A stretch of DNA of 64,000 nucleotides from Elusimicrobiaceae bacterium (lineage in GTDB: Bacteria; Elusimicrobiota; Elusimicrobia; Elusimicrobiales; Elusimicrobiaceae). How positions within the stretch are numbered: the stretch's first letter is position 1; each line of letters begins with the position of its first letter. The notes beneath the pieces were generated by a model. That model searched no databases, had not been told where the DNA came from, and saw only the letters and a program-made list of their open reading frames with translations. This document shows, in pieces, positions 1-62,373 of this stretch. The stretch is from NCBI GenBank assembly GCA_017618215.1, contig JAFZUQ010000004.1, forward strand, positions 1 through 64,000, read 5' to 3'. Position numbers and translations under genes: made by a program.

Positions 1-3000
1 ACCTTCGTTTATCTCTTGGTAAGCACCTGAAGTTAATATTGAACTTATCGCTGAGCCTCCATTATTTATTACTTGACTGCCTCCATCATTTACAGACGTA
101 TATAGCGCCGATCCGCTGTTTATCACTTGGCTGCCACCTTCGTTTACAATAGTATTGCTCACCGTTCCCCCTGCAACCACTTGACTGCCACCATTGTTTA
201 CTGTTGTACCAGACGCTGTACCTCCTTCATTAACAATTTGGTTCCCCCCATTGCTTATCGTCGTATTTGATGCTATACCACCATTATTTATTACTTGACT
301 ACCACCATTACTTATGTGGGTATTACTCGCCAATCCACCCTCTAACACTTGGCTGCCGTTTGCATTTATCGTCGTATTCCATGCTTTTCCACCAGTACTA
401 ATTACTTGCGAACCGTTTTCATTTATGGCAGTAGAATTGGCCGTTCCACCATTACTCACTATTTGCGTCCCGCCGGCATTTATTACCGCGTTAGATGCCG
501 AGCCACCATTTATAAGTACTTGCGTCCCACCTTCATTTATCGAAGTAAATCTCGCTACGGTATTATGAGCCGCCGCACCGCTTCCACTTACTAATTGGCT
601 GCCACCTGCATTGATTATTGTATGCCATGTCTTTCCACCATCAGTTACTACTTGTAAACCACCTTCATATATGCTTGTGTACCAGCCTTGGCCATCCCTA
701 GAAATCGTTTGTACCCCGTTATTTTGTATCGTAGTACTTATCGCACTTCCACCAATGCTAACTACTTGTGTTCCACCTGTGCTTATAGTAGTACTATTTG
801 CTGTACCACTGCTGTAAATTATCTGTAATCCACCATTACTAATATCTGTTTCATTCGCTGTCCCACTTGTATTGATTATTTGGCTACCACCATTATTAAT
901 TTGTGTACCATTCGCTGTTCCGCTTGCGTTTATTACTTGGCTGCCACCATTACTTATTATCGTTACACTCGCTATACCGCCATTGCTCAGTGTTTGGATA
1001 CCACCTTCACTTATCGTTGTAGCTGACGCAAATCCACCTTTAACTATTTGATTACCACCAGTATATATCGTAGTACTAATCGCACTTCCTATATTCGTCC
1101 CAGCACCAGATACCATCTGCGTACCGTTTTCATATATCTCTGTATTACTTGCTACAGCCCTGTTGCTGATTGTTTGTGTCCCACCATTAATCGTCGTGCT
1201 CGTCGCAACAGCTCCGTTTATGCCTAAAGATTGTGACCCGCCACTTATATGTGTGTTCGTTACTGTTCCTTTTACTATCTGCGTACCGTTTGTGTATATG
1301 TATGTGTTATCTGCACTTCCATTTGCACTTACTACTTGACTTCCACCTGCATTAACTGATGTCGCACTTGCTGTACCACCGCTACTTATTATTTGTTTAC
1401 CTAAATTGTTAATAATAGTGCTGGTCGCTAATCCACCCGAAAGTATATACTGACTTCCACCACTTATCGTCGTATTACTTGCTAAACCACTATTATATAC
1501 ACTTTGTATACCACCATTGTTTATCGTAGTTTCCGTAGCCGATCCATGATCATATACACTTTGTACCCCGCCATTAGACATCGTTATATCATGCGCCCAA
1601 CCAGAATTGAATACTGACATCGTATCGCCTTGGCCCAAATCTATATGATCCATTGTCGCATTATTTACAACATAGTTATGTCCACCGCCGCCACCGCCTG
1701 TCATATCGGATGCAAAACTATACTGCCCACCATTTAAAACATAAATATCTGTAAGACCACCATAATAACTTGTATGTTCTGCACTTCCACCGTCAATTAT
1801 TTGGCTTCCGCCTGACATCAATATCGTATGGCTTGCAAGACCACCTGTATATATCACTTGGCTGCCGCCTGTGTTTATCGTAGTATCTGACGCTACACCA
1901 CCTTCACTAACAACTTGACTGCCGCCTGCGTTTATCGTAGTATCCAATGCTACACCGTCAGGCCGAACTATTTGTAAACCGCCATTGGAAATAGTAGTAT
2001 TACTGGCTACACCGCCGTTCCAAATTGCTTGGCTACCACCACTGCTTACTTTTGCATTAAAGGCTACCGCATTGCGAATAAACTGTAGACCGCTTTGGTA
2101 AATAATTGTATCGTATGCTGATGCACCGCTTTCAACATTTTGTGTTGCACCGCTATACACTACGGTACTATTGGCTACACCACCGTGCATTTCTTGCACA
2201 CCGGCACTTAAAACTGTGTTATTGGTAACCCCCCCATCATACACATATTGTCTTGCTGCACCGTAACGAATTACTGTATTATTAGCAGTACCGCCCGAAC
2301 TTACATGCTGATAAGCGGCATTAGTTGTGGTAGTGCTGGTAGCATCAGCTATACCACCGTCGCTAATAACTTGAGAGCCAAGCCACTGTAACAAAGTTCC
2401 GCTGGCATATCCGCCATCAGATATTATTTGGGTACCGCCGTTATGCATTATTGCATCATAAGCAGTACCACCTGCACTTACATGTTGATAAGCGCTGGAT
2501 ATTGTACTCATACCACTAGCTATACCGCCGTTTCGGATATGTTGTTCCCCATAAAAAAGTGAACCACCGGCAGCATAACCACCGGATATAATTTGTACGC
2601 CATTTGTTAGAATAGTCGGGTTATAAGCAGTCCCACCGGCATAAACTACTTGTGAACCACCGGAAAGTGTTGTGTTGCTTGCAGCACCACCATTATAGAC
2701 AAATTGGGACCCCCCTCTAACAATAGTACCAGATGCAGTACCACCACTTACATATTGATATCCACTGTTAGATATTATTGTATTATAGGCTATAGCGTCA
2801 GCGTAAACATATTGGACACCGCGACTCACAATTGTATCACTGGCAACACCGCCGGAATAAATATATTGACGCGCTGTAGAATTAAGGAGTTCCGTACCAA
2901 TTGCAGTGCCACCGCTTGAAACACATTGACTACCCGTAGAAGAGACCTTCGTACCAGCAGCCACACCGCTATCTAAAACATATTGTTTACCATTCCACCT

Positions 3001-3880
3001 CACTTGAGTACCACTAGCATATCCGCCGGAATATACAAATTGACCACCGGAATTGTCACCTTCGGACCAGTTCTCAGATAGTACTGTACCAAATGCAGAA
3101 CCACCGTTACTTAAAATTTGCTTACCGTAAGAGTTAACGGTCACATCGCTGGCTATACCGCCGTCAATAGTCTGAATAGCATTATTACCTACTCTACCGC
3201 CACTGGTATATCCGCCGGTAGATACCATTTGCACAGCTCCGCCGTGAAGAATTGTACCATAAGCACTGGCATTAGAAAGGACTTGTAAGCCGCCGGCACT
3301 AACCGTCGTATTGTTTACAACACCACCGTCTGAAACAATTTGGGTACCAGAAATCTGAACAACTGTACTATTTGCAGTACCACCCATGACTACTTGTGAG
3401 GCATAGCTATTAACATTTGTGTTATTTGCAATACCGTCGGCATAAACATGCTGACGAGCGCCAGAAGCACTAATGAATGTACCGTTTGCTGTACCGCCGG
3501 CAGAAATAGATTGAGTAGCGGAAGCATGAACGAGAGATGTATTTATTGCAAGCCCGCCGTTTTTTATATATTGGTGGCCGCTGGCTACTGTATTACTCGC
3601 CGTACCGCCGCTTAGGACCTGCGATCCCGTCGCTGCAATTCTAGTACTTGTGGTTACACCGCCGTTATACACGACTTCGTGGGAATCAGCTCCGACATAA
3701 GTACTTAATGCACTACCGCCGTTTGAAATATATTGCCATCCCCTAGTATGAATTGTTGTATGACTTGCAAAACCGCCCTGCTTTACATGTACTTCCCCGG
3801 CTGCCTCAACTACGGTATCTATTATAGTTCCATAATTTGTAAGAATGCTGGTTACATCAAGCCCCCCGTCCGAGCCGACT
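1..3880 (-). repeat. Degenerate tandem AIDA strand-loop-strand repeat array
   Basis: Some sixty or more degenerate units of about 54-63 bp encode repeats of the form GGxQxVxxGGxAxxTxI. Copies nearer the left edge (C-terminal side) are more uniform, often NNGGSQVINNGGIASNTTIS. Copies near the N-terminus are more diverged, with variants such as QHVSAGGTA and QYVYDGG. A gradient of this kind fits more recent amplification toward the C-terminal side, but that is inference by eye. Confidence 0.85.
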
Positions 3881-4158
3881 GTTAAACCTGTTGAAGTTTG
3901 ACCGGCACTTACCGTTAAATTCCCGGCATAAGCAGGCAACGCCATATTATTAGCCAACATCGCACCCATGGTGGCTGTATATATCACCTGACGACCGCCA
4001 TTATACACATGGGACATCAAACGGGCCCCTAATCCATGGCTGGACACTAAACAACACGAACTTACTATTACCGCACTGCGGCTACAACAATATTCTTGCT
4101 CTAAAGCTTGAATCGTTGCACTTGAGTAAATGTTTTCAGGTTGATGACGTTTTGCCAT
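1..4158 (-). CDS. AIDA-type autotransporter passenger, C-terminus beyond window
   Basis: The frame is open from ATG 4158 to the left edge (1,386 codons, no stop), so the gene is partial and its C-terminal beta-barrel is not visible. A GAGGGG ribosome site lies 8 nt before the ATG. After about 90 residues the protein is an almost unbroken array of roughly 18-20-residue units of the type NGGSQVVNxGGTASNTTI. This is the strand-loop-strand AIDA repeat, which folds as a beta-helix on the cell surface. An AYA/G signal-peptidase-like site lies near residue 78, preceded by an unusually long leader with Cys pairs (CCSRS, SSCC). Around residues 810-855 a Gly-rich break (six Gly, then a non-repeat segment with LGQGDTMSVF) interrupts the array. 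The upstream gene, 4 bp away, is a heptosyltransferase known to modify such repeats on Ser. Adhesin function is inferred. Confidence 0.9.
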   Translation of the reverse strand, partial: MAKRHQPENIYSSATIQALEQEYCCSRSAVIVSSCCLVSSHGLGARLMSHVYNGGRQVIYTATMGAMLANNMALPAYAGNLTVSAGQTSTGLTVGSDGGLDVTSILTNYGTIIDTVVEAAGEVHVKQGGFASHTTIHTRGWQYISNGGSALSTYVGADSHEVVYNGGVTTSTRIAATGSQVLSGGTASNTVASGHQYIKNGGLAINTSLVHASATQSISAGGTANGTFISASGARQHVYADGIANNTNVNSYASQVVMGGTANSTVVQISGTQIVSDGGVVNNTTVSAGGLQVLSNASAYGTILHGGAVQMVSTGGYTSGGRVGNNAIQTIDGGIASDVTVNSYGKQILSNGGSAFGTVLSENWSEGDNSGGQFVYSGGYASGTQVRWNGKQYVLDSGVAAGTKVSSTGSQCVSSGGTAIGTELLNSTARQYIYSGGVASDTIVSRGVQYVYADAIAYNTIISNSGYQYVSGGTASGTIVRGGSQFVYNGGAASNTTLSGGSQVVYAGGTAYNPTILTNGVQIISGGYAAGGSLFYGEQHIRNGGIASGMSTISSAYQHVSAGGTAYDAIMHNGGTQIISDGGYASGTLLQWLGSQVISDGGIADATSTTTTNAAYQHVSSGGTANNTVIRYGAARQYVYDGGVTNNTVLSAGVQEMHGGVANSTVVYSGATQNVESGASAYDTIIYQSGLQFIRNAVAFNAKVSSGGSQAIWNGGVASNTTISNGGLQIVRPDGVALDTTINAGGSQVVSEGGVASDTTINTGGSQVIYTGGLASHTILMSGGSQIIDGGSAEHTSYYGGLTDIYVLNGGQYSFASDMTGGGGGGHNYVVNNATMDHIDLGQGDTMSVFNSGWAHDITMSNGGVQSVYDHGSATETTINNGGIQSVYNSGLASNTTISGGSQYILSGGLATSTIINNLGKQIISSGGTASATSVNAGGSQVVSANGSADNTYIYTNGTQIVKGTVTNTHISGGSQSLGINGAVATSTTINGGTQTISNRAVASNTEIYENGTQMVSGAGTNIGSAISTTIYTGGNQIVKGGFASATTISEGGIQTLSNGGIASVTIISNGGSQVINASGTANGTQINNGGSQIINTSGTANETDISNGGLQIIYSSGTANSTTISTGGTQVVSIGGSAISTTIQNNGVQTISRDGQGWYTSIYEGGLQVVTDGGKTWHTIINAGGSQLVSGSGAAAHNTVARFTSINEGGTQVLINGGSASNAVINAGGTQIVSNGGTANSTAINENGSQVISTGGKAWNTTINANGSQVLEGGLASNTHISNGGSQVINNGGIASNTTISNGGNQIVNEGGTASGTTVNNGGSQVVAGGTVSNTIVNEGGSQVINSGSALYTSVNDGGSQVINNGGSAISSILTSGAYQEINEG

Positions 4159-4162
4159 ATTT

Positions 4163-5521
4163 TTATTTCCCCTCTTTTTCGTTTGATTTTTTGTCGTCTT
4201 TTGGTGCTGTTATATTATGGTCTTTCATAAGTTGCTTAATATGCCCGATTACTTGTTTACCGGTTATAAGACGGGTGCATTCAAATTGCCTTGGTGTATT
4301 TTTAAATTTAGGACACCAAAAATAATCATAATGATCAAAATTGCAATTGACATCATCCCAACATCCGTTACAACCGTGCGAATTAAATACCCTATACGGT
4401 GTATAAAATTCACATATCGGTAAAGTAAAACCGCTAATTAATACTATTGGTATATGCGTGCACCAGGCAAGCCATGTTAACCCTGAAGACAGACCTATAA
4501 AAAAGTCCGCGTGTTCAAGTAATTCCACACGTTCTTGTAAAGGTTTAGCACCTGTAAAATCTTCCGCATCATGCGGTATTCTGTTCCATGTATATTGGAA
4601 CCCGGTTACCGGTTCTTTATCTATGCAAATTACACGATAACCCAAATCTTTCAAGTAAGCTATAACTTGTTCCCAACCAAAACCATTATTCCATAACTTG
4701 GCCTGAGAACTTGCTTTTGTTGCTATACATACATATCTTTCTTTTATTTTGCGTTCGCTGCCTAATTTTACTTTCGGGGCTTCTTCGCGTGGATCTACAC
4801 CTAAAATATATCCTGCTGTACGATGTAAACCTACCCTGCGGAAATCTATCGGCTGATGTGTTTCGTTACCTCTAAAAAATAACCCCATCATATAACTTGC
4901 ATAAGGTTTTTCAAAACGCGGTTTGCCGGGCAATGCAGTAAAAAATAAATTCGGATATTGTGATTCAAATACTTCCGCCAAAGGTTTGCCCATCGTAAGT
5001 TCTGCAACACATTGATGTTGACGTTGGAATCTATCTGCATAAGTCATCCATCCTATCGTATCACCTAACGTACCTACCGGGAATTTGATTTGTACTTCTT
5101 TGCCTTTTAAATCTAATGTGTGGTTTAAAACCGGTTCTTTTTCCCCACGGACCCAAACACGAATCCTAAAGGGAATATAATATTTTTTTGTGCTTGTTAC
5201 CCAACCCTCGTCGGGATCGCAAGCGAAAATGATATTGTCAGTTTCGTCATCTTCTATTTGAACATGCCATTTGCCTTTTGGGAGTAATATGCGCACACCG
5301 TCGTTAAAATCATATTTAATACCCATCGGTCCTTCTTGTGTAGGCTCTGCAGGTGCATTTATTATAAACGGATTTGGAGGTATCTGCGGTTGTTTTGTGT
5401 TCACAGATGCCGTCACATCTTGCGGCATTGTTTGCGTTGAATTAGCTGCGGCTAAACCTTGTTTTTCCGTCGGTTCTTCCGCGGATTTTACTACCATTGA
5501 TTCTTTATTTTCTGTTGACAT
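4163..5521 (-). CDS. Autotransporter O-heptosyltransferase (TibC/Aah/BAHT family)
   Basis: This 452-aa enzyme is predicted to move heptose from ADP-heptose onto Ser residues of the adjacent AIDA-repeat autotransporter, in the cytoplasm before export. The first 60 residues are low-complexity (Pro/Thr/Gln). A beta-rich N-domain follows (about 65-150). An LGDTIGWM motif at 152-159 contains Asp154, the likely counterpart of the catalytic Asp described for TibC. The C-terminal half is GT9-like, with LSSGLTWLAW near 345-354. A Cys cluster (C384-x2-C387, C403, C415, plus C393) matches the iron-finger that defines the BAHT family. The order transferase then autotransporter copies aah-aidA and tibC-tibA. 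The start has an AAAGGGG ribosome site 5-7 nt upstream. The N-terminal extension is longer than in TibC. Confidence 0.9.
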   Translation of the reverse strand: MSTENKESMVVKSAEEPTEKQGLAAANSTQTMPQDVTASVNTKQPQIPPNPFIINAPAEPTQEGPMGIKYDFNDGVRILLPKGKWHVQIEDDETDNIIFACDPDEGWVTSTKKYYIPFRIRVWVRGEKEPVLNHTLDLKGKEVQIKFPVGTLGDTIGWMTYADRFQRQHQCVAELTMGKPLAEVFESQYPNLFFTALPGKPRFEKPYASYMMGLFFRGNETHQPIDFRRVGLHRTAGYILGVDPREEAPKVKLGSERKIKERYVCIATKASSQAKLWNNGFGWEQVIAYLKDLGYRVICIDKEPVTGFQYTWNRIPHDAEDFTGAKPLQERVELLEHADFFIGLSSGLTWLAWCTHIPIVLISGFTLPICEFYTPYRVFNSHGCNGCWDDVNCNFDHYDYFWCPKFKNTPRQFECTRLITGKQVIGHIKQLMKDHNITAPKDDKKSNEKEGK

Positions 5522-5650: not shown

Positions 5651-5680
5651 AAACTTTTTATATCTTAAAATTCAAAAAAA

Positions 5681-5701
5681 CCACGGGTTTTTAGCCCGTG
5701 G
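5681..5701 (-). terminator. Rho-independent terminator downstream of asnS
   Basis: A perfect 7-bp stem (CCACGGG/CCCGTGG) with a 7-nt loop is flanked by seven A on the left and five T on the right. Read on the minus strand it follows the asnS stop by about 34 nt and ends in a T7 run. It could also stop plus-strand transcription. Confidence 0.85.
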
Positions 5702-5734
5702 TTTTTATTTTAATAATCGTTTATGGCTTTTAGA

Positions 5735-7027
5735 TTATGGTTTCAAGCGGTCCATTAAACGCGGGAAAGGTATCGTTTCGCGTAAATGGTGCAAGCCGCA
5801 CATCCAGGAAACAAATCTCTCAATACCCATCCCAAAACCACTGTGCGGAACGGAGCCGTATTTCCTTAGGTCCAAGTACCAGTCAAATGCTTCAACCGGC
5901 AAACCTTGTTCTTTGATGCGGGAAACTAAAGTGTCATAATCTTCTTCGCGTTGGCTGCCGCCGATAATTTCCCCATAACCTTCGGGGCCGATCATATCAA
6001 CTGCCAAAACAACGCGCGGATCTTTAGGATCGCGTTTCATATAAAAGGCTTTAATGGCAGTCGGGTAGCGGTGTATCATAACAGGGCGGTCAAAGTTTTC
6101 GGAAATTATTGTTTCTTCGTCGCCGCCGATATCGCCGCCCCATTCTGTCGGATTGCCTTTTTTGTTTAAAATTTCAATGGCTTCCGTATAACTTATGCGC
6201 GGGAAAGGTTTTTTGATATTTTCAAGTTTTGAAATATCACGCCCCAAAATTTCAAGTTCTTTGCGGCGGTTCTTTAAAACTTGTTCAACTAAGTAGCAGA
6301 CAAAATCTTCGGCAAGGTCCATATTGTCATCTAAATCGTTAAAAGCGACTTCAGGCTCAACCATCCAAAATTCAGTTAAATGGCGGCGTGTTTTTGATTT
6401 TTCGGCCCTAAATGTCGGCCCGAAACAATAGATTTTGCCAAGTGCCATTGCGCTTGCTTCACCATATAATTGGCCACTTTGGGATAAATACGCCTTTTCA
6501 CCGAAATAATCTGTTTCAAAAAGTGTTGATGTGCCTTCGCAAGCAGCAGGGGTTAAAATCGGGGAATCAACTAAAGTAAAACCGTTTTTCCTAAAATACT
6601 CGCGAATAGCAAAAATAACTTCATCACGAATTTTTAAAATCGCAACTTGCCTGCTGGAACGCAACCACAAGTGGCGGTTATCCATCAAAAATGCGGTGCC
6701 GTGTTCCTTGTTGGAAATAGGATAATCTTTTGCCATTTGCAAAAGTTTAATATCTTTTACACCGAGTTCAAAACCAAGCGGGGAGCGTTTATCTTCCCTA
6801 ACTGTTCCGGTAATTTCAACGGAACTTTCCTGTGCAAGTTTATCACCGAGTTCAAAAACTTCGGGGGTAACATCCCCTTTAAAAACTACACATTGAATAA
6901 TTGCGCTGCCATCGCGCAACTGTAAAAAATGTAATTTGCCGCTTGAGCGTTTGTTATAAAGCCAACCTTTTAAGGTAATTTCTTTACCAACATATTGGGC
7001 TACATCTGAAATTCTGATTTTTTGCAT
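5735..7027 (-). CDS. asnS: Asparaginyl-tRNA synthetase
   Basis: This class II synthetase (430 aa) charges tRNA-Asn with asparagine in the cytosol. An N-terminal OB-fold (about 10-100) binds the anticodon. Motif 2 ([11 protein letters not shown], about 206-216) and motif 3 (GFGMGIERF, near 403) are intact, and the length is normal. I chose ATG 7027 (MQKIRIS) because GAGG lies just upstream. An in-frame ATG six codons earlier (7045) sits 8 nt after a TATAAT box and could be used only if the transcript is leaderless. gatB elsewhere in the window shows that the amidotransferase route is also encoded. Confidence 0.97.
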
Positions 7028-7053
7028 AAAGACCTCGTATACCATTTGTATAT

Positions 7054-15318: not shown

Positions 15319-15684
15319 TTATAGCCCGGGATTTGAAGTATCTATGGAAAAACTAGTAACCAACATATGAGATTCATCAATATCAGTACCTGAAGTGCTT
15401 GTCATTGCTATATTACCAATTGAATCATCTACACCCGGATTTGTATAGAAACGACAATTCATATCCATACCCGTGGGTGGCATACCGGATAAATCAGCCG
15501 CAGCCAAGAAAGACATATACTGCTCCAAACAACTGTCTGCAACTATATCAGCTTCCAAAACACGTGCAGTTCTGGAAATATTGGCACTTCTGGTCACTGC
15601 ATATCTGAGTATCAAAATAGCAAAAGTGGCAATAATAAGCCCTATTACTAAAACCTGCATTAAAGCCGAACCTTTTTTTGACAT
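15319..15684 (-). CDS. PilX/GspK-like minor prepilin lacking Glu5
   Basis: This 121-aa protein begins KKGSALMQVLVIGLII: a type III signal-like positive end and hydrophobic helix, but Gln replaces the conserved Glu at +5. That absence is typical of tip pseudopilins of the PilX/GspK kind. Two Cys (about 52 and 77) may form a disulfide. It is last in the run of six prepilin genes and begins 2 bp after the one before. Confidence 0.72.
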   Translation of the reverse strand: MSKKGSALMQVLVIGLIIATFAILILRYAVTRSANISRTARVLEADIVADSCLEQYMSFLAAADLSGMPPTGMDMNCRFYTNPGVDDSIGNIAMTSTSGTDIDESHMLVTSFSIDTSNPGL

Positions 15685-15685
15685 A

Positions 15686-16426
15686 TTATATTCCTCTTTT
15701 TATAGTTAAAAGATGTGTAAATCTAAAATAAACCGGGGGTACATCCATACCTTCAAAATCCCGTTTAATAGTATAATTTATTAAGAACTGGGGAGTTGAT
15801 AAATCCGTTGGATGCGGTGATAAATTAAAACTCTCGACATAGGGCAATACTGTTTCCTTATGGCCGGTTTCACTGCAATAATCAATTGCTGTCTTTATAA
15901 AACTGCCTTCTGTATTAATATCTCCTATCTCTATGGTTTCATCATCAGTATTAAGGAATGTACCATCACACCTATAAACTTTATTACCCTCATAAGTGTA
16001 AACGACATAAGACGGTGTAATACAACGTCGGGTAATTGCATCATTACTTAAACTAGTAGCCCAAATATTGTTACTAGATCCGCACACTGGGCCTGTAATT
16101 CGTTTAAGACGAAGGCTGTCAGTATCAATGCTATCAGGATCTATAACAGCTTCCTTTACCGCAATATACATATTACTATCTGAACAATAGGGCCCCCCAC
16201 CAAAGCCACTGTAAAACCACGGGCAAATAATTTCGCTTGCGGAAACAAAGTCAGAATAAATTCTTCTTAAGAAAAGCGTGCTCTCATTCCTAATAATTGA
16301 TTGCCTTTGTGCTTGTGCGGTATGGTTTGAGGAACTCCTCCACATCGCAACCAAGGAAAGCATTACCATCCCCGTAATAAAGATGGAAACCAACAATTCC
16401 ATTAAAGTAAAACCTTTTTTTGTCAT
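15686..16426 (-). CDS. PilW/GspJ-like minor prepilin
   Basis: This 246-aa prepilin starts at ATG 16426 (MTKKGFTLMELLVSIF), with GGAG upstream and a 4-bp overlap with the previous gene. An ATG five codons earlier is less likely. Cleavage before the Phe would leave Glu5 in the hydrophobic helix. The long Cys-containing globular domain fits the larger minor pilins (PilW/GspJ). Confidence 0.8.
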   Translation of the reverse strand: MTKKGFTLMELLVSIFITGMVMLSLVAMWRSSSNHTAQAQRQSIIRNESTLFLRRIYSDFVSASEIICPWFYSGFGGGPYCSDSNMYIAVKEAVIDPDSIDTDSLRLKRITGPVCGSSNNIWATSLSNDAITRRCITPSYVVYTYEGNKVYRCDGTFLNTDDETIEIGDINTEGSFIKTAIDYCSETGHKETVLPYVESFNLSPHPTDLSTPQFLINYTIKRDFEGMDVPPVYFRFTHLLTIKRGI

Positions 16427-16899
16427 AACGGCTCCGAACAATTTGTTGTTATTTCTAAATCAAAAAAATTAGCTAACATTGGACTTGGGGCGCTACCAAC
16501 ACTATTTGTCACAGGAAGAGAAACATTCACCCCGTTACTATTAGTAAGAACTCTATATTTATAGAAGGCGTTAGGATCATCTTTACACAAATTATTAAAA
16601 TTGAAAGTAAATAAGTCTCCACAGGTTTTTAAATCATGATACCCGTCCGCATCAGTGGTACCCCCCCCGCTGTACAAATGCTCACAACCTGAAACGCCTA
16701 ATTGACAATTATCATTATTCCGGCAATCCTTTAGCATGCCATAGGCACTTTGTATACTGTAAAGAACTTCTTCCCTCTCCGAAGAAGTTACTATTGCCCT
16801 GCGCCCTGACATTAAGGCAGAAAATACAGCCCCGACCATAACAACAATCAAAAACATGGCCACGACTGCTTCCATTATTGTATATCCTTTATTATTCAT
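16423..16899 (-). CDS. PilV/GspI-like minor prepilin
   Basis: This 158-aa prepilin has KGYTIMEAVVAMFLIVV at its N-terminus (cleavage before Tyr, Glu at +5). The short, Cys-rich globular domain (at least five Cys) and its place before the PilW-like gene fit PilV/GspI. The stop overlaps the next start as ATGA. Confidence 0.78.
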   Translation of the reverse strand: MNNKGYTIMEAVVAMFLIVVMVGAVFSALMSGRRAIVTSSEREEVLYSIQSAYGMLKDCRNNDNCQLGVSGCEHLYSGGGTTDADGYHDLKTCGDLFTFNFNNLCKDDPNAFYKYRVLTNSNGVNVSLPVTNSVGSAPSPMLANFFDLEITTNCSEPL

Positions 16900-16932
16900 A
16901 AGTTTTCTCTTTCCTTTAAAGTATATTTGTGT

Positions 16933-17415
16933 TTATAATGCTTGCTTTTGAACTCTACCTAAAGAATCTATACATGCACATTTATTGTAATATGTCCCAG
17001 CATCCTGTTTACCTGTTATGGAAACTACAGGAGACGAACAAGCATCACACGAAGCTGCTGTACCTGCCGCAAAAGTATATCGGTCCAGAATATCTGGGGG
17101 AATAGTTAAATATTTACAATTCCTCAACATTGAGACATCTTGTATCAGAGTACCGTTTCCATACATTGTCTCTATCTTACACTCGGCAATGGGCGATGCC
17201 GGATTTATAGTCCCTATTACCGTAGTACCGGGATAATCTTTTTCAAAATTTAAACGCGCTTCATTAAGCTGCTCCATATAAATTATTGCTTTTCCATTAT
17301 AAGAATCATCCATATACCCTTTTATATACGGGGTACTGAAAAAAGCCATAATCATTAAAATAACTATTACTGCAACCATCTCCGCCAAGCTAAAACCTTT
17401 GTTTGTTTTCATCAT
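16933..17415 (-). CDS. Type IV prepilin-like protein
   Basis: This 160-aa prepilin has KGFSLAEMVAVIVILMIM at its N-terminus, with the cleavage site and Glu5 intact. Paired Cys near the C-terminus (CDAC and CAC) suggest a disulfide-rich end. A GGTGG ribosome site precedes the two possible ATG codons. Role: major or minor pilin cannot be decided. Confidence 0.8.
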   Translation of the reverse strand: MMKTNKGFSLAEMVAVIVILMIMAFFSTPYIKGYMDDSYNGKAIIYMEQLNEARLNFEKDYPGTTVIGTINPASPIAECKIETMYGNGTLIQDVSMLRNCKYLTIPPDILDRYTFAAGTAASCDACSSPVVSITGKQDAGTYYNKCACIDSLGRVQKQAL

Positions 17416-17417
17416 TA

Positions 17418-17927
17418 TTATTCCACCACCTTATCCTGATTAGGATCGAAATAAGCACAAGCTGGATATGCGGCAGAAGTTTCACCTGCTTTGGGCTTCA
17501 TAACAACCGTAAGCGAATTCAATGTAGCTCCACCTGCACATGGTGTGTTGGCAGTAGAAAAATAAAAATCAAAATGTTCATCAAAACCCAAACTTCTTTC
17601 CGCATACCCGCAACGAAAAACATTGCTTGCTTTATCTGCATCACTTGTCTCACTTGAAATCGGTATACAAACACCCGGTGCAACAATCGAATCTGTAATT
17701 GCAATTTCCCCGTCGGCATTAGTTAAGGAAAATGTACCTCTTTCCAAAACATACCTGGTAGTAGCACCGCCCAAAGCAGCTAATCTGCCTTTTGCTGCAT
17801 TAACTTCACTCTCCCTCATAATATCACTATAATAGTAAACTGCATAACTTGCAAGTATTGCTACCAAAATTATGGTTACGAGTAACTCCATTAAAGTAAA
17901 CCCTTTTTTATTATTTCTATAATCCAT
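17418..17927 (-). CDS. Type IV prepilin-like protein
   Basis: This 169-aa prepilin has KKGFTLMELLVTIILVAIL (Glu5 present) and a long N-terminal helix with a YYYSDIMRE stretch. The globular domain has three Cys. It overlaps the previous gene by 11 bp, pointing to coupled translation. Confidence 0.8.
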   Translation of the reverse strand: MDYRNNKKGFTLMELLVTIILVAILASYAVYYYSDIMRESEVNAAKGRLAALGGATTRYVLERGTFSLTNADGEIAITDSIVAPGVCIPISSETSDADKASNVFRCGYAERSLGFDEHFDFYFSTANTPCAGGATLNSLTVVMKPKAGETSAAYPACAYFDPNQDKVVE

Positions 17928-18438
17928 AGCAACTAACTCCTTCAGTCTTTTTTATAACAGCCGGGTCATCCCTTCCTATATAAAACCCGTAACATTCGGT
18001 TTCAGCACCCGCATCTACCTTTGCCAATTTACATATTACTTCACACGCTTTACTGCTAGCAACCTTTTTTATGATATATTTACAATTTAAAACTCCGGCA
18101 TTTGCATCATTCAAAGAATAAGTATTGGTATTTGGATTTAATGCCCATCTTGCCGGGTTCGCCAAATACCGATAACCTTGTGATTCATCTATCAAAGTAT
18201 TAAAAGTATTGGTGTCCAACGGTTTATCTGCAGTCGTAACTAATTGTTGCGCCGGATTAGCGTCACGATACAACTTTACTGCCATATTTAATTCAACCAA
18301 TCCAACTTTTACCTTTTCTATTTGACTAGTTAAAGCAGAATTTTTGAAAGACGGAACCACCAACAAAGCCAACACTGCAATAATTAATGTAACTGCTATA
18401 ATCTCAATCAAAGTAAAGCCTTTTTTACTTTTCATCAT
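17917..18438 (-). CDS. Type IV prepilin-like protein
   Basis: This 173-aa prepilin has KKGFTLIEIIAVTLIIAVLA (Glu5 present). It is the first prepilin after the machine genes, so it is a reasonable candidate for the most abundant subunit of this group, but that is inference. The C-terminal third has four to five Cys. Its start shares one base with the PilC stop (TAATG). Confidence 0.82.
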   Translation of the reverse strand: MMKSKKGFTLIEIIAVTLIIAVLALLVVPSFKNSALTSQIEKVKVGLVELNMAVKLYRDANPAQQLVTTADKPLDTNTFNTLIDESQGYRYLANPARWALNPNTNTYSLNDANAGVLNCKYIIKKVASSKACEVICKLAKVDAGAETECYGFYIGRDDPAVIKKTEGVSCYGL

Positions 18439-61026: not shown

Positions 61027-61904
61027 TTCGGGGATATTCTTCCTTATTTTTCTTTTGGCTGATTATAGGGTTTGCACCGATTGTAGGCGGGATTTCAATT
61101 AAAATAATTGATAATATCCTCCTTGTTTTCCTTGCAAGTTTGATAGGATTTTTATATTTTTTGCCATACCTTATAAAAAATAAGGAATTTACCACACTTT
61201 TCAATAAAAATAATTTTATCCCTTTTTTGGTAATTGCGAATTTCGGTTCTGCTTTACCTTTTTGCTGTTTGCTTTATGCTCTTAATTTTACTACGCCGGC
61301 AAATACTGCCATCTTAAACCAATTTGAACTTTTGTATTCTTTTATTTTCAGTATAATATTTTTAAAAGAAAAAGTTACTTTTAAACAAATTTTAGCTTCA
61401 CTTTTAATAGTTCTTGGCGGTGTAATTTTAATGTCCGGTTCTTTTAAAAATATAAATCTAAAAGGGGATTTAATTGTAATTTTTAGTGTCTGGATGTTTC
61501 AAGTTTCACATATCGCAGCGAAAAAATTATCCGCAAATATTCCTTGCCAAGTGCTTGCTGCAGCAAAAAATTTATATGCTTTACCATTAATGTTTGTTTT
61601 GCTCATAATATATTCCAACGCAACTTTTATTAAACCCGGTGCAACACTTTACGGCATAATTTTTTATATGGGTGTTATTCGCTATGGTTTATCTTATTTA
61701 CTTTGGTTTTGGACAATACAAAAATTATCTTTACCTAAAGTTACCGCTATTGCTTTATCTTACCCGGCCTTAACGTTAATTTTATCTTGTTTATTTGGTT
61801 ATGACAAATTAACTTTGTATAATGTTATGGGGCTAATATTATCAATGCTTGGGGCAACAATGTTAAGTAAAATGTTAAGTAAGGAGATAAAAAATGCGAA
61901 ATAA
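61023..61904 (+). CDS. EamA/DMT-family transporter
   Basis: This 293-aa protein has about ten TM helices as two EamA repeats (about 5-135 and 150-288; ITGLILSMLGA-like end LILSMLGATML). The substrate is unknown. Lys-rich C-terminus; the last 11 bp overlap the prepilin gene. Confidence 0.85.
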   Translation: MIRGYSSLFFFWLIIGFAPIVGGISIKIIDNILLVFLASLIGFLYFLPYLIKNKEFTTLFNKNNFIPFLVIANFGSALPFCCLLYALNFTTPANTAILNQFELLYSFIFSIIFLKEKVTFKQILASLLIVLGGVILMSGSFKNINLKGDLIVIFSVWMFQVSHIAAKKLSANIPCQVLAAAKNLYALPLMFVLLIIYSNATFIKPGATLYGIIFYMGVIRYGLSYLLWFWTIQKLSLPKVTAIALSYPALTLILSCLFGYDKLTLYNVMGLILSMLGATMLSKMLSKEIKNAK

Positions 61905-62373
61905 AGGATTTTCTTTAATTGAACTTTTGGTTGTGGTTTTAATTATAGGTGTTTTGGCTACTATTGCTTTGCCATCTTATCAGAATATTGTTGAAAAAGC
62001 ACGTAATACAGAAGCACAGATAATTTTAAAACCGCTTTCACATTTAATAAGTTATAAGCCCAAAACCGAATATAGAACGGATTTAGGTCCTAGAGATTTA
62101 ATTACTATGAATTTTGATGGCGCTTCATGGAATGAAGATAATACTCGCTATCAAACGAGTATGCACGCAGTAACTGCAAGTTGTACGGTTTCACCTAGGG
62201 AATGTGTAGGGGAAATATTTTACCCGGCAACCGGTACGGCAAAATATAGCTTAAGATTGTCTGCTACCGATGACACACCATTAGTAAAAACATGTATCTA
62301 CAATGTCCCTAAATTTGAAAAAATCTGTGATTATATGACTACTTTTGGCTTTATAAAACAGGCCGGAGAATAA
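61894..62373 (+). CDS. Orphan type IV prepilin
   Basis: This 159-aa PilE-like prepilin has KGFSLIELLVVVLIIGVLATIALPSYQNI with Glu5, the classical type IVa N-terminus. Four Cys lie in the C-terminal half (CTVSPREC, CIYNVPKFEKIC). It has GGAG upstream and lies 33 kb from the machine genes, so it is a separate pilin or pseudopilin. Confidence 0.88.
   Translation: MRNKGFSLIELLVVVLIIGVLATIALPSYQNIVEKARNTEAQIILKPLSHLISYKPKTEYRTDLGPRDLITMNFDGASWNEDNTRYQTSMHAVTASCTVSPRECVGEIFYPATGTAKYSLRLSATDDTPLVKTCIYNVPKFEKICDYMTTFGFIKQAGE

Follow-up and report, generated by a model that had tools for sequence, protein, structure and literature searches.

A candidate autotransporter O-heptosylation cassette in an Elusimicrobiaceae bacterium and the tailed passengers of its relatives

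Here we describe a pair of genes at the beginning of contig JAFZUQ010000004.1 (C2 in our numbering) of an Elusimicrobiaceae bacterium (assembly GCA_017618215.1), of which the first 64,000 bases were analysed and are hereafter called the window. The two genes, an Aah/TibC-type heptosyltransferase and an AIDA-type autotransporter passenger, very probably constitute a protein O-heptosylation cassette, as is suggested at the sequence level by the family of the enzyme, its catalytic, donor-binding and iron-binding residues, the repeat substrate, the close pairing of the two genes and the presence of a donor pathway. In the mechanism that we propose, ADP-heptose would be supplied by the general GmhA-HldA-GmhB-HldC(-HldD) pathway, and the enzyme would transfer the heptose, in the cytoplasm and before export, to many serines in the repeats of the neighbouring passenger. 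The modified passenger would then leave the cell via the Sec route and its own C-terminal beta-barrel, and the displayed product would be a heavily glycosylated adhesin, probably serving attachment in the gut. The pair comprises the following features.

4163..5521, minus strand: Aah/TibC-family autotransporter O-heptosyltransferase (BAHT), 452 aa, assigned by TIGR04414, the match to TibC in the PDB and residue alignment
1..4158, minus strand: AIDA-type autotransporter passenger, 1386 aa visible, its C-terminal part beyond the contig end, assigned by TIGR04415 (39 stretches) and PF16168 (27 stretches)

The heptosyltransferase and its repeat passenger

Judged from its sequence, the product of the upstream gene is unambiguously an autotransporter O-heptosyltransferase of the Aah/TibC type. 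It matches the Aah/TibC equivalog TIGR04414 with 580.4 bits (E=1.4e-174) against a curated cut-off of 200, it carries the N-terminal beta-barrel domain (PF21129 TibC_1st, E=2.5e-33, with the model covered over its full length), and it is approximately 59% identical to crystallised TibC (PDB 4RB4/4RAP, E ~1e-166), relative to which it has an N-terminal extension of about 50 residues. Individual residues were compared in an alignment of 20 sequences, consisting of TibC, the window enzyme and 18 further Elusimicrobiota enzymes. The catalytic Asp110 of TibC corresponds to Asp154 and the donor contacts Lys230, Arg286 and Trp305 correspond to Lys275, Arg331 and Trp350, all of them invariant in 20/20, and the four iron-finger cysteines of TibC (339, 342, 358 and 370) align with Cys384, 387, 403 and 415, which are likewise kept in every sequence. 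The roles of these residues in TibC, including the essential Asp and Cys and the donor contacts, were described by Yao et al. (2014; PMC4358343). The initial annotation of this DNA had named the same Asp and Cys residues as marks of a BAHT-type enzyme, and their exact alignment with TibC bears this out. Another informative position is Pro300, which restricts TibC to ADP-D,D-heptose, while Ser294 lets Aah take both epimers, and the swaps TibC P300S and Aah S294P exchange this preference (PMC4358343). Because the window enzyme has a serine (Ser345) at this position, as Aah does, we would predict that it accepts both ADP-D,D- and ADP-L,D-heptose.

The passenger gene follows the stop codon of the enzyme gene after only 4 bases, and its frame starts at 4158 and runs without a stop down to base 1 of the window. 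The signal region of the passenger ends with ...NNMALPAYA and is followed by approximately 39 strand-loop-strand repeats, seen as 39 stretches of TIGR04415 (E=1.8e-179) and 27 AIDA stretches of PF16168 (E=3.2e-102). TIGR04415 is the family of strand-loop-strand repeats that BAHT enzymes target. An enzyme directly followed by a giant AIDA-repeat passenger, the arrangement of aah-aidA and tibC-tibA, had been claimed for this locus earlier and is what we find. As a separate observation, the passenger has an extended, Cys-/Ser-rich N-terminus before the signal cleavage site (window 3900-4158, minus strand) that is conserved across the N-termini of all homologous passengers with the pattern ENIYSSxxxQxLEQxYCxSCSAAVVSS...SRIYNGGRxAxYTATxGAML. 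Unlike the N-terminus of TibA or AIDA-I, this one (ENIYSS...LEQEYCSSCSA...) follows a conserved pattern specific to the family, and it may be a counterpart of the extended signal peptide region.

The missing barrel, the donor and competing explanations

The window passenger is incomplete because the window and contig C2 begin at the same base. The genome assembly amounts to 1.34 Mb in 19 contigs with 93% completeness (the window has 36% G+C) and holds three repeat open reading frames (ORFs), namely that of the window, a complete one of 1024 aa near C2:101,000-104,200 with no enzyme adjoining, and a third that is cut by the end of C18. An end of C15 and the start of C5 each carry a barrel C-terminus, the two being nearly identical (...GLNAGIRLGFGG(S)KKK-stop), and these two orphan barrel ends equal in number the two cut passengers (start of C2, end of C18), which is consistent with the assembly having collapsed at a barrel that both have in common. 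On this match in number, a barrel with a short lysine tail is the most likely end of the window passenger, which probably lacks the OmpA-like domain seen in some of its relatives. A direct join of C15 to C2 was considered and rejected: the orientation fits, but given the second barrel end and the second cut passenger the partner is not assignable, and gene order does not settle the matter, as infC-rplT stands beside asnS in close relatives but on C12 in this genome.

An alternative to a working cassette is that this genome carries a decaying or non-functional pair, with a cut passenger in a recently acquired locus. We consider this improbable. It would accord with a passenger that runs off the contig, with a relative (G051, L034) whose passenger is cut to 321 aa, and with the patchiness of the cassette, the enzyme being above the cut-off in 24 of 341 Elusimicrobiota genomes; yet neither reading frame is interrupted over the 5.5 kb, the break is the contig end, and a collapsed assembly accounts for it, given the two almost identical pieces of barrel at the ends of other contigs.

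Turning to the donor, the genome encodes, as judged by homology, the whole ADP-heptose pathway (GmhA, HldA, GmhB, HldC and HldD), which the initial annotation had proposed as a check. HldA (TIGR02198, 382 bits vs a cut-off of 345), HldC as a separate protein of 155 aa (TIGR02199, 189 bits vs 181.5) and HldD (TIGR02197, 310 bits vs 274.6) are above their thresholds, and kdsB and a gene resembling that of a lipid A acyltransferase lie in the vicinity of hldA and gmhB. The same annotation had spoken of a "dedicated" O-heptosylation system, a description that holds for the enzyme and passenger but not for the ADP-heptose genes. Homologues of HldC and GmhA occur in 60/60 relatives tested, most of them without the transferase, and therefore the donor is borrowed from general, lipopolysaccharide (LPS)-type metabolism and is not tied to the transferase; nor is the pair unique to this genome.

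Several observations weigh against O-heptosylation by this pair. The GmhA homologue scores 203 bits, below its curated cut-off of 209.5, and the GmhB homologue falls short on two models (TIGR00213, 111 bits vs 149.6; NF006506, 146 bits vs 178). Thr226 in the donor site of TibC is replaced by Ser271, a conservative change common to all 19 Elusimicrobiota sequences aligned. The hydrophobic thumb-tip pair Phe265-Val266, which TibC needs for its dodecamer (PMC4358343), corresponds to Tyr310-Thr311 in the window enzyme and to Phe-Val or Phe-Ile in some relatives; the window enzyme may also assemble as a dodecamer. The enzyme structure predicted with AlphaFold2 was of poor quality (mean pLDDT, the predicted local distance difference test score, of 61) and was not used, and the window passenger shows no PF03797 barrel up to the contig end where it stops.

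The replacement of Thr226 bears on a further possibility, that an enzyme of the same fold and substrate uses a donor other than ADP-heptose, such as another ADP- or NDP-sugar, and the universal presence of HldC and GmhA in the clade, where they serve other needs, would leave room for it. With the catalytic Asp and the Lys, Arg and Trp donor contacts invariant and a complete ADP-heptose pathway in the genome, we regard such a donor as highly improbable. Finally, it is scarcely credible that we are dealing with a GT9-type paralogue that adds heptose to LPS or to some other glycan and lies beside a repeat protein by accident. The enzyme's weak matches to PF01075 (28 bits) and RfaQ (21 bits vs a cut-off of 467, on which an LPS-heptosyltransferase identity was rejected) are far exceeded by that to TIGR04414, a specific Aah/TibC equivalog, it has both the iron finger and the TibC-specific N-terminal domain PF21129, and a repeat protein accompanies it in 24/25 loci despite mostly differing flanks, which is not expected by chance.

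Barrels and tails of related passengers

In classical autotransporters the barrel forms the C-terminal end of the protein. Complete passengers homologous to that of the window consist of repeats, then an autochaperone (PF03212/PF18883) and then a PF03797 barrel, and in most of them a tail of 12 to 430 residues extends beyond the barrel, while that of locus L149 ends canonically. The C-terminus of one passenger was modelled with a mean pLDDT of 74, mostly 80-94 in the barrel region, and the model resembles the solved autotransporter barrels of AIDA-I (4mee, E=1.4e-14) and BrkA (3qq2, E=2.9e-16). The OmpA-like domain PF00691 is found above its cut-off in the tails of passengers of genomes G006, G039 (two passengers) and G075 and in both passengers of a putative Endomicrobium proavitum genome, and in a profile comparison the aligned tails match solved OmpA-like domains. 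Autotransporters with such a tail occur in two classes of Elusimicrobiota. Barrels with a fused OmpA-like (PF00691) tail are located as follows.

L033, 6919-10560 and 10586-13771
L035, 11677-14925
L147, 14025-19625
L148, 5220-10850
L039, 3-4010

In other passengers a Pro/Thr-rich or charge-rich linker leads to a conserved terminal motif, for example DYSLMEEIERGW or DFSYMQQLEQQW. The passenger C-termini of L028, L037, L038 and L151 have a low-complexity linker past the barrel and a terminal conserved D(Y/F)(S/T)xM(Q/E)xxExxW motif. Two further architectures were noted among these loci. A putative E. proavitum passenger (L148 5223-8222, minus strand) has a match to PF18760 ART-PolyVal (E=1.9e-12) between the barrel and the OmpA-like tail, and in G006 the BAHT-passenger pair is followed by a second autotransporter (L035 7528-11634) that has no AIDA repeats but a PF03797 barrel and an OmpA-like tail.

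The OmpA-like tails would anchor the adhesin to the cell wall in cis. In YeeJ the peptidoglycan-binding module is N-terminal and the topology inverse, unlike in the Elusimicrobiota relatives, where the OmpA-like module is C-terminal and the topology classical. What is shared with that inverse autotransporter is the fusion of a periplasmic peptidoglycan-binding module to an autotransporter barrel (PMC5595812). The OmpA-tailed relatives also recall AtaA-TpgA (PMC13082670), in which an adhesin barrel is tied to the cell wall via a periplasmic peptidoglycan-binding domain. TpgA, however, is a separate protein on a trimeric barrel, whereas in the relatives the domain (it was not seen in the window itself) belongs to the same polypeptide as a monomeric AIDA-type barrel, which it follows. 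No report of barrel-OmpA fusions of this kind was found in a search of mainly open-access literature with few subscription journals. We regard the question as evenly balanced whether O-heptosylation in Elusimicrobiota goes with a distinct class of adhesin, that is, a heptosylated AIDA passenger with an autochaperone, a barrel and a periplasmic tail, often OmpA-like and peptidoglycan-binding, that would anchor it to the cell wall, encoded by a cassette that spreads between species and genera.

Distribution, mobility and relation to known systems

Close relatives of the enzyme were found in 18 named genomes. Of these, 17 belong to Elusimicrobiota, many being Elusimicrobiaceae assembled from rumen or gut metagenomes, and the remaining one carries the label Selenomonas ruminantium. 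The placement of the host in Elusimicrobiota, which the initial annotation had put forward from gene content, is borne out by this distribution, and the family is Elusimicrobiaceae. The putative E. proavitum genome, a single contig of 1,588,979 bases, has two enzyme-passenger pairs; E. proavitum is a cultured organism with a published chromosome of 1,588,979 bases (PMC4505116). In the 25 loci inspected, a repeat ORF usually lies directly downstream of the enzyme gene; in G066 the repeat partner is a protein of 525 aa, and the single locus in which no repeat ORF was found beside the enzyme is that of G096. Two more distant cases were observed. A relative from the same order (L041 4043-5620; G066 C55 and C7) has up to three BAHT copies, one of them beside the 525-aa ORF, which ends in repeats with no barrel apparent. 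The S. ruminantium metagenome assembly (L082 9001-10188) has a BAHT approximately 60% identical to that of the window with a repeat protein upstream, and from this assembly the presence of BAHT in Negativicutes is possible.

The genes flanking the pair mostly vary between species. The flank of the window pair has the following features.

5735..7045, minus strand: asparaginyl-tRNA synthetase gene asnS (NF003037), outside the system, marking the insertion site
5676..5706, minus strand: intrinsic-terminator-like stem of 12 pairs (6 GC) between asnS and the enzyme gene, supportive only

Genome G010 has the same asnS-lpoB neighbourhood as the window genome, with an AsnS that is 98% identical and an enzyme at the same place. 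This enzyme is only 75% identical to that of the window, whereas enzymes of another genus reach up to 83%. In the tree, the window enzyme falls into a clade of 12 rows (support 100/97), the other rows being ten sequences from genus g6 and a single one from g1, and that of G010 stands apart; long branches make the deeper order of this tree unsafe, and no direction of transfer between phyla is claimed. In the close relatives G014, G002 and G003, whose AsnS is 97-99% identical, the enzyme is missing at this place, and asnS adjoins rplT or is separated from it by one small ORF. Since the window enzyme groups with another genus while the nearly identical AsnS of G010 flanks a different enzyme at the same site, the best reading is of a cassette that travels from species to species, with one version replacing another at a given site. 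As the terminator-like stem separates asnS from the enzyme gene, the two genes of the pair are probably transcribed as a unit of their own; in the region 6 terminator-like matches were found vs 3.6 expected, and sigma-70-like sites near the operon are no commoner than in shuffled sequences, so no promoter is claimed. Elsewhere in the window (15319-18438 and 61894-62373) are several pilin-like proteins whose N-termini resemble those of type IV prepilins, one cluster being followed by secretion-type genes.

The system is a known one, in a phylum for which no earlier report was found. It resembles TibC-TibA of enterotoxigenic Escherichia coli (ETEC) and Aah-AIDA-I of diffusely adhering E. coli (DAEC) in the identity of the enzyme to TibC, with all catalytic and iron-site residues, in the repeat substrate, in the enzyme gene directly upstream of the passenger and in the ADP-heptose pathway of the host. 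It differs in that its host belongs to Elusimicrobiota and not to Proteobacteria, among the pathogens of which BAHT homologues have been listed (PMC4358343), in the serine (as in Aah), the Tyr-Thr thumb tip and the N-terminal extension that set the enzyme apart from TibC, and in the tails after the barrel in relatives of the passenger. Among 5.4 million open-access papers we found no paper mentioning both Elusimicrobiota and heptosyltransferase, and Elusimicrobiota and autotransporters are named together in two of them, in neither case in the title or abstract. The occurrence of BAHT machinery in a commensal phylum suggests that autotransporter heptosylation is a tool of gut colonisation rather than a speciality of virulence, and the two pairs in the putative E. 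proavitum genome would make this idea testable in an isolate.

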